Shown here: piece by piece, positions 36,233-38,276 of the stretch
How the letters are laid out: every line of letters begins with the position of its first letter
Numbering within the stretch: position 1 is the stretch's first letter
Source: Deltaproteobacteria bacterium
GTDB taxonomy: Bacteria; Desulfobacterota; Dissulfuribacteria; Dissulfuribacterales; QOAL01
Direction: 5' to 3'
NCBI GenBank assembly: GCA_026995935.1
Contig: JALWNK010000055.1
Coordinates: forward strand, 1 to 38,276
DNA length: 38,276 nucleotides
Program-made: the position numbers and the translations under genes
Notes under the pieces: generated by a model
Database searches by the model: none
Told to the model about the DNA's origin: nothing
What the model saw: only the letters and a program-made list of their open reading frames with translations

Positions 36233-36652
36233 TTACCTGCTTCTGTGATTATTTGCCACCCAGTTTTCAATTTGTAAGGATTTTATTCGGCTGAACTCAT
36301 TAATATTATTTGTGACAAGAATTAATTTCCTGCTTAAAGCATGGGCAGCAATGAGCATGTCAATAGGGCCGATTACTTGTCCTATTTTTTCAAGAGTTGC
36401 TCGGATCCTTCCATATTCCCTTGACGCAGCATCATCGTATGCCAATACATCAAAGGGATAGAGAAAGTCTTCAACCCGCTGAATATTCCGTCTTTTATTA
36501 CTACTTTTTTGAGCCCCGTAATAAAGTTCAGAAACAGTTATTGAGGATACTGCAATTTCACCAATTCCCATTTCCCTGAATCTTGCCAATACTTCTGGCG
36601 GATGGTGATTCATGATATAAATGCAGATATTTGTATCAATCAAATATTTCAT
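36233..36652 (-). CDS. vapC: VapC-type PIN-domain toxin
   Basis: 139 residues. Acidic residues of the PIN nuclease site are D6 (LIDTNICIY), E42 (SELYYGA) and D98 ([10 protein letters not shown]). The usual fourth acid is replaced in TNNINEF. VapC toxins cleave initiator tRNA or rRNA. It overlaps its antitoxin gene by 17 bases. Confidence 0.93.
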
Positions 36653-36884
36653 CCAGACCTTCTCTAATCTGTTGGCCTTCCGGTTGATTACGTTTTGCCA
36701 TAAACGGTTTCTTATATTTCTTTAAATTTTTTTCCCATACATCCCAGACAGTGGATTCTTTTGGGATTAATAGAACTCCCTGGGGAACTTTTTTGATATA
36801 AACTTCCTTTCCATGGAAACGATAACGTTTGGGCAATCTTACAGCCTGGCTACTACCGTTCAGAAAAAGTTTTGCCGTATCCAT
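36636..36884 (-). CDS. vapB: VapB-type AbrB/MazE-fold antitoxin
   Basis: 82 residues from the ATG at 36884, preceded by GGGGG; a longer in-frame extension is not credible. [22 protein letters not shown] is the swapped-hairpin DNA-binding fold of VapB/VagC, followed by a toxin-binding tail. It normally represses its own promoter. Confidence 0.92.
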
Positions 36885-37093: not shown

Positions 37094-37684
37094 GTCTCAA
37101 TCCCTTCTTCATCAGGTCTAGGTTTGGAACGGAGGCGATCGAGGAAGTTATTCGCGAACACTGGCCAAAAGTCTCAATCCCTTCTTCATCAGGTCTAGGT
37201 TTGGAACCTGAAGTTTTTGGCGCATCAAACTACCTGCTCCAAAGGGAGTGATAAGTCTCAATCCCTTCTTCATCAGGTCTAGGTTTGGAACAGTTGCTAA
37301 AAGTATAGTTCGTGACTCCTCTTCTCAAGTCTCAATCCCTTCTTCATCAGGTCTAGGTTTGGAACAATTACAGCAATAAATAGGGGCCTGCCTGCCACTG
37401 TTGGCATAGAGTCTCAATCCCTTCTTCATCAGGTCTAGGTTTGGAACGCGGCCTCAAAAGAGGTCAAAAAACCGGAACAACAGGGTCTCAATCCCTTCTT
37501 CATCAGGTCTAGGTTTGGAACGCGAGATGAACTTAATTTCTGTCTTACCGATGCCATTGCACTCAATGTCTCAATCCCTTCTTCATCAGGTCTAGGTTTG
37601 GAACTCTAAAAATTCAATCATGGGTCACTCCAATCGCTGTTTTGAAAGTCTCAATCCCTTCTTCATCAGGTCTAGGTTTGGAAC
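37094..37684 (-). CRISPR. CRISPR array: eight 37-bp repeats, seven spacers
   Basis: Repeats start at 37094, 37171, 37255, 37329, 37411, 37485, 37568 and 37648 and look identical; on the plus strand each begins GTCTCAATCC and ends TTTGGAAC. Spacers are 40, 47, 37, 45, 37, 46 and 43 bases. Read on the minus strand the repeat ends ATTGAGAC, the usual crRNA handle form, so transcription runs from high to low coordinates, away from cas2. The newest spacer would be 37605-37647. The subtype cannot be told without the other cas genes; repeat form suits type I-B, I-D or III. Spacer targets were not checked. Confidence 0.97.
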
Positions 37685-37899
37685 AGGTGCCATTTTTTTA
37701 TTAAAAAAATCAGATGGTTATTTAGGCATTTTCCGTAACCTCATTTTTTCCTCTCCGTAAAAAGCCCTAAAAGGCATTTGGCGACCTTCCAAATTTGCCA
37801 AAATAAAAGTTATTTCAGTAAGTTATGAATTTACCGTAACCTGCCCCCGTTTTCGCATATGCCAGAAAAAGCCAGCAACTTATTGAATTTTTTAAGAAA
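37685..37899 (-). promoter_or_regulatory. CRISPR leader
   Basis: AT-rich 215 bases between the first repeat and cas2. The motif AGGTTACGG (minus strand) occurs twice, at 37733-37741 and 37834-37842, 101 bp apart. Such motifs can guide spacer integration; this is inference. No gene was seen. Confidence 0.7.
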
Positions 37900-38208
37900 T
37901 TACAAAATATACACGTCCTGGTCCTCCAGAACCGGGCCTTTTCCGATAATTATCATGCCCTTCTGGCATGTCGCGCACATGGGGTAGATACGCACGCTGT
38001 CTTCCTGTTCGTTTATGGTCCTGTTTATTCCCTTTATCAATTTGTCAAAGAGCTCTTGGTCCAACCTTGCTTCAAAAACACTATACTGCACTCTGTCTCC
38101 AAAGTCCAAGAGCATCTTGGCAAGTTTTGTCCGTCTCCTGTCGTTTGGGATGAAGTGGTACCCGATTTTTGTACAACTTTTCGTTAATTTTATGTTCGCC
38201 TCCGCCAT
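37900..38208 (-). CDS. cas2: CRISPR-associated protein Cas2, 5' end replaced by an IS
   Basis: The 102-residue frame holds a good Cas2 body: IPNDRRRTKLAKMLLDFGDRVQYSVFEARL, then VRIYPMCATCQKG. Cas2 forms the adaptation complex with Cas1. However, the first 19 residues (up to GYHF) do not fit Cas2, which normally opens with a strand ending YDIP, holding the conserved Asp. That portion is read from the end of an IS3-like element; the native part ends at about 38150. A start codon in the IS creates an in-frame fusion. It may be inactive. It reads toward the array, in step with the leader. Confidence 0.85.
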   Translation of the reverse strand: MAEANIKLTKSCTKIGYHFIPNDRRRTKLAKMLLDFGDRVQYSVFEARLDQELFDKLIKGINRTINEQEDSVRIYPMCATCQKGMIIIGKGPVLEDQDVYIL

Positions 38209-38276
38209 CTGTTTTCATGCTGCACAGGCAAAATCATATACCTCATCTGGAGTCTTGTAAGACAGACTTTGATGGA
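38151..38276 (-). mobile_element. Right end of an IS3-like insertion sequence
   Basis: The element begins TGAAGTGGTACCC at 38151, a terminal repeat of IS3 form. The C-terminus of a transposase lies inside it and the rest runs off the window. It is inserted into the first codons of cas2. It is not the same element as the left-hand IS, because the two terminal sequences differ. Confidence 0.75.
38215..38276 (-). CDS. IS3-family transposase, C-terminal end (partial)
   Basis: Visible residues read HQSLSYKTPDEVYDFACAA and then stop. HQSLxYKTPxEVY is the usual end of IS3-type DDE transposases. The stop is at 38217-38215, 64 bases from the IS end. Confidence 0.75.
   Translation of the reverse strand, partial: HQSLSYKTPDEVYDFACAA

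Follow-up and report, generated by a model that had tools for sequence, protein, structure and literature searches.

The window analyzed in this study is the entire contig C55 (38,276 bp) of a source genome of 2.59 Mb in 79 contigs, and its right edge falls 126 bp within an IS3-family element that abuts a cas2 gene beside a CRISPR array. This arrangement raises the questions of whether a transposition has interrupted cas2 and whether the gene could still serve the acquisition of new spacers. An earlier note, made from this one end of the element, had proposed an IS3-like insertion that cuts into cas2 and supplies it with a new start.

The cas2 remnant and the end of the insertion sequence

Reading the minus strand from the right edge of the contig, we found the transposase tail, 6 nt, an ATG at 38208, the IS terminal repeat, and cas2, in this order. 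The remaining part of cas2 (37900-38150, minus strand) starts with TCCCAAACGACAGG... at about the ninth codon, covers native residues 9 or 10 to 91, and ends with a stop codon at 37902-37900. The final A of the IS takes the place of the native A and thereby restores Ile9. From the ATG at 38208, an open reading frame of 102 residues (37900-38208, minus strand) joins 19 IS codons to 83 cas2 codons, as described in the earlier note. The Cas2 domain extends over the body of this protein (PF09827, 70.6 bits; TIGR01573, 64.2 bits; both from residues 20-21), and in nearly all PADLOC Cas2 models, as well as in Pfam and NCBIfam, the match begins only at fusion residues 20-25. The native Cas2 frame had thus been placed correctly, on the minus strand with its stop at 37900, and the profile matches it from fusion residue 20 onward. 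The N-terminal strand with the conserved Asp (YD), which is present in 14 of the 14 homologues aligned with the window protein, is missing from the fusion, and IS-encoded residues stand in its place.

Between cas2 and the CRISPR array lies a leader-like region (37691-37899, minus strand), and a similar region occupies the same place beside a second array on contig C16. The array itself (37094-37684, minus strand) consists of eight identical 37-bp repeats and seven spacers of 37-47 bp. Additionally, beside the array (36233-36884, minus strand), an ORF with a PIN domain was observed directly downstream of a MazE/AbrB-like ORF; the two form a VapBC-type toxin-antitoxin pair in which the MazE/AbrB-like member falls just below the Pfam cut-off.

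The right end of the IS occupies 126 bp (38151-38276, minus strand) up to the contig end that cuts it, and is 98% identical to the right end of the IS at locus L061. At 38151, TGAAGTGG represents the element's terminal inverted repeat, whose terminal CA lies at 38152-38151 on the minus strand. The transposase C-terminus HQSLSYKTPDEVYDFACAA* with its stop codon (38217-38215) lies beyond this end (38215-38274, minus strand). Its homologue at L061 matched the IS3-family model NF033516 with 284.8 bits (cut-off 160) and the Pfam domains rve, rve_3, and HTH_21. Both assignments of the earlier note, i.e., the codons in front of the native frame to an IS end and the tail beyond them to a transposase, are therefore borne out. 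The element at L061 (L061:2628-3893, 1266 bp) is a complete relative, 98% and 97% identical to the two ends of the cas2 copy, and its orfA appears damaged. The same right end was also identified at L057-L060, adjoining unrelated DNA in each case.

The terminal repeats of the IS (left TGAGGTGGTCCCC..., right ...GGTACCACTTCA) form an imperfect inverted repeat with TG...CA ends. A target-site duplication of TCC was found at cas2, with its right copy at 38148-38150 (minus strand) and its left copy on contig C57, as the three bases that immediately precede the IS. Duplications of 3 bp are normal with this IS, because AAC/AAC flanks the same IS at L061 and TTG/TTG flanks a 69%-identical copy at L075; no duplication was found at four other, distant full-length copies. 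With the IS3 family (NF033516), the element has in common an rve/HTH_21 transposase, TG...CA ends, imperfect inverted repeats, a 3-bp duplication, and a length of about 1.27 kb, and no difference was seen in this comparison, which covers its ends and the L061 relative, its own interior being unassembled.

In the source genome, the ends of this IS were detected only on C55 and C57, apart from a single diverged relic of 73 bp. Relic sequences whose terminal repeats resemble those of the IS were observed at G000:C51:20477-20507, C51:25090-25162, and C11:12528-12548, and these are probably remnants of related elements. The assembled part of the cas2 copy amounts to 126-127 bp per end, with the start of orfA on C57 and the tail of orfB in the window. 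Several IS-bearing contigs stop at 123-127 nt into the element. The stops of C55 and C57 at 126-127 nt into the IS would fit an assembler k-mer of about 127 that fails at a sequence repeated in the sample.

The other half of cas2 and its uninterrupted relative

The earlier note expected the rest of cas2 and cas1 beyond the IS, and both were found at the end of contig C57, where a Cas1 profile search of the same genome had located cas1. After cas1, this contig reads ATG CAC TAC ATA ATT TCA TAC GAC ATC C and continues with TGAGGTGGTCCCC..., so that the cas2 start ATGCACTACATAATTTCATACGACATCC (MHYIISYDI) is directly followed by the left end of the same IS. Beyond this left end, the start of orfA (ATGGCAAAGAAAAAG...) is reached before the contig ends. 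When the two flanks were joined with the shared TCC counted once, a complete Cas2 of 91 residues was obtained (MHYIISYDIPNDRRRTKLAKML...VYIL). The IS is flanked by both halves of cas2 and by the target duplication, with the halves on two contigs. No intact cas2 start adjacent to the remnant was found in the source genome; the native start is the one on C57, separated from the remnant by the left end of the IS.

Both contigs end in a repeated element, where misjoins happen, and the junction could in principle be an assembly chimera. We rejected this reading as extremely unlikely, because C55 and C57 independently carry complementary IS ends, each on the correct half of cas2, and because the 3-bp duplication matches. 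The rebuilt frame also equals that of a natural homologue.

A natural empty site was identified at L055 (JALVJO010000141; same family, other genus), which contains cas1 and, free of any IS, an uninterrupted start of cas2. Up to the junction, this locus and C57 are 94% identical over 1,178 bp; past it, the cas2 remnant of the window matches the uninterrupted cas2 of L055 at 100% over 104 bp. Because L055 matches both flanks without the IS, it shows the state before insertion and the order of C57 and C55. It also has an intact cas2 start, so the empty site exists in nature. The insertion originally deduced from one end is confirmed by the presence of both ends, the TCC duplication, and this empty site. 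As no read or assembly spans the IS, we infer the adjacency of C57 and C55 today, and the halves could have been relocated since by a recombination event between copies of the IS.

It is possible, if rather doubtful, that the insertion is polymorphic, in which case other cells of the population would keep an intact cas2 and the assembly would represent one allele; this would add to an insertion into cas2 rather than replace it. The L055 contig ends 127 nt after the cas2 ATG and several of the contigs that carry the IS break off 123-127 nt inside it, and such ends would be expected of a k=127 assembly graph if the intact cas2 had a second context. However, C57 reads into the IS uninterrupted, a different strain or a further cas2 copy could provide the second context, and the reading draws on contigs rather than on reads or assembler settings. 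We observed that the end of the L055 contig (L055:4977-5103) falls exactly where L055 and C57-type sequence become identical. This contig end is a hint that the source community may contain another cas2 allele that is intact, possibly reflecting a polymorphic insertion.

Contig C57 harbored cas6, cmr1, cas10/cmr2, cmr3, cmr4, cmr5, cmr6, two CARF genes, and cas1. The type III-B set on this contig gave NCBIfam matches for Cmr2 (196.7 bits), Cmr4 (229.4 bits), and Cmr6 (138 bits), and PADLOC matches for Cmr1, Cmr3, Cmr5, and Cas6. Like type III-B (Cmr) loci with their own cas1-cas2, the locus comprises cas6, cmr1, cas10/cmr2, cmr3-cmr6, CARF genes, cas1, cas2, and an array, whereas it differs from them in its interrupted cas2. 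Additionally, an ORF with a PDDEXK_3 domain (PF13366) was observed between the CARF genes and cas1 (L012:15037-15408, on C57).

We consider it very likely that the type III-B cas2 received an IS3-family element in its ninth codon by transposition, leaving the integrase there non-functional or badly impaired and the array frozen. An IS3-family copy, whose close relative measures 1266 bp and whose own interior is unassembled, inserted there in the same direction as cas1-cas2 and duplicated TCC. Cas2 thereby lost residues 1-8, its native start, and its upstream region, and the remaining 83 codons stand in frame with an ATG of the IS by chance. A Cas1-Cas2 integrase that is non-functional or badly impaired would then freeze the array. 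The existing spacers, together with cas6 and the Cmr effector, would remain and may still give immunity.

The fusion frame and the expected loss of adaptation

The extra residues of the fusion come from the IS. Fusion residues 1-19 (MAEANIKLTKSCTKIGYHF) recur at five unrelated sites (L057-L061) with the same IS end and different non-cas DNA. They were found in no homologue without the IS and occur only as an IS end, and the homologues aligned with the protein have short starts that end in YD (YDV in one) and carry no IS. Two of the three outward frames of the IS end are open from an ATG, with tails of 19 and 22 codons, and a fusion ORF is therefore expected by chance from two of three co-directional insertions of this IS. 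We also considered selection for the fusion frame but set it aside for lack of support, given that an ORF of this kind arises in two of the three frames.

Within the 20 nt upstream of the fusion ATG at 38208, Shine-Dalgarno-like matches did not exceed 3 nt. The native cas2 has AAGG 5 nt before its ATG, and nothing comparable precedes the ATG of the IS. The claim that the IS supplies a new start thus holds for the open reading frame, which is present, but not for a functional start, as no ribosome-binding site was found and nothing suggests selection; judged from the sequence, translation from this ATG is putative.

These data also bear on whether the IS end might equip cas2 with a start that works and with a substitute for the first strand (KIGYHF for IISYD), which would give a functional fused Cas2 and allow adaptation to continue. 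In its favor, the frame stays open through 102 codons, and the IS points in the same direction as cas2. Re-initiation is possible, since 6 nt separate the transposase stop from the ATG, and the active-site residues of E. coli Cas2 are dispensable (PMC4574026). Nevertheless, we regard a functional fusion as improbable, given that two of three outward frames would yield such an ORF by chance, that no ribosome-binding site was found, that the Asp of YDI becomes Phe, and that the IS part is left unaligned by the Pfam and NCBIfam Cas2 models. A specific form of this idea, in which the IS end is a replacement N-terminus and the fusion is translated by re-initiation after the transposase stop to yield an Asp-less, structural Cas2 for Cas1, appears very improbable. 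If true, a working adaptation protein would have incorporated the end of a transposon.

The preferred reading, a disruptive insertion, is in line with what the IS removes. Comparison with the natural empty site L055 confirmed that residues 1-8 of Cas2, including the first beta strand and the conserved Asp8, are lost; the earlier note had stated this for the first strand and its Asp. The native cas2 start and the upstream ribosome-binding region are also cut off by the IS. In the type V-A system of Francisella, mutation of the conserved N-terminal Asp of Cas2 nearly abolishes full-site integration (PMC13034035). In the type I-E system of E. coli, Cas2 active-site mutants still acquire spacers (PMC4574026, PMC13034035), and loss of the Asp alone therefore need not stop adaptation. 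The case for lost adaptation leans more on the loss of the strand and the start than on that of the Asp. Loss of the strand, the start, and the upstream region should exceed either point mutation in severity, and adaptation would thus be expected to be lost or badly impaired. By this reasoning, spacer acquisition from the type III-B locus is very probably lost or badly impaired. Stored immunity may persist, because the insertion does not touch the array or the C57 interference genes and both the effector and the existing spacers remain.

Other cas loci and comparable cases

Contig C16 carries a second copy of the cas1-cas2 region, likewise broken, in this case through a deletion and a stop codon. 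In this copy (about L002:1440-2300; L013:10240-10884), cas1 is cut to its first codons (ATGGCC), which the deletion has joined to a cas2 tail that contains an in-frame TAG. The array downstream has the same 37-bp repeat as the C55 array, and C16 is 86% identical to the window across a 570-bp stretch that takes in the cas2 tail, the leader, and part of the array. No intact second cas2 of the same kind was found in the source genome, the only other close copy being that on C16, which has the TAG and no start. The one other cas1 that scored above the curated cut-off is part of a separate type I-C locus on C56, where the genes cas4-cas1-cas2 look intact. Judging by gene content, the only adaptation set in the genome that looks intact is this unrelated type I-C one, and its Cas1-Cas2 might act in trans on the type III-B arrays.

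Natural transpositions of ISs into cas genes have been documented in 163 cases involving 20 IS families and 57 genera (Sheng et al. 2023, Nat Commun 14:4366, PMC10359306). The locus studied here has in common with the cases described in the main account of that survey a cas gene split by an IS with a target-site duplication. It differs from them in that the target is a type III-B cas2 and that only adaptation, not interference, would be expected to be lost. A phrase search for 'inserted in cas2', which is a weak one, and which was made outside the supplementary lists of that survey, returned no report of exactly this case, i.e., an IS in a type III-B cas2. The cas2 insertion is a clear, ordinary new instance of a published and common phenomenon. 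It offers a clean example from nature of a CRISPR system that has probably lost the machinery for new memories and retained its effector and memory. Since the second adaptation copy on C16 is broken by a different route, the genome offers a modest case study of the loss of type III adaptation.

Several minor observations were made on related loci. The broken cas2 on C16 contains a run of about 80 nt identical to the window copy, with the remainder clearly more diverged, a pattern that suggests gene conversion. In another genome of the same order, the cas2 at L017 (G034:C149) is 53% identical to the query and has an in-frame TGA, and a partial match at G034:C157:29224-29406 spans only fusion residues 42-102; decay of cas2 may recur in the group of G034. 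Finally, in the C16 array (L013:10526-10882), a spacer-repeat block of 119 nt occurs in two identical copies 238 nt apart, so that at least one spacer is duplicated.
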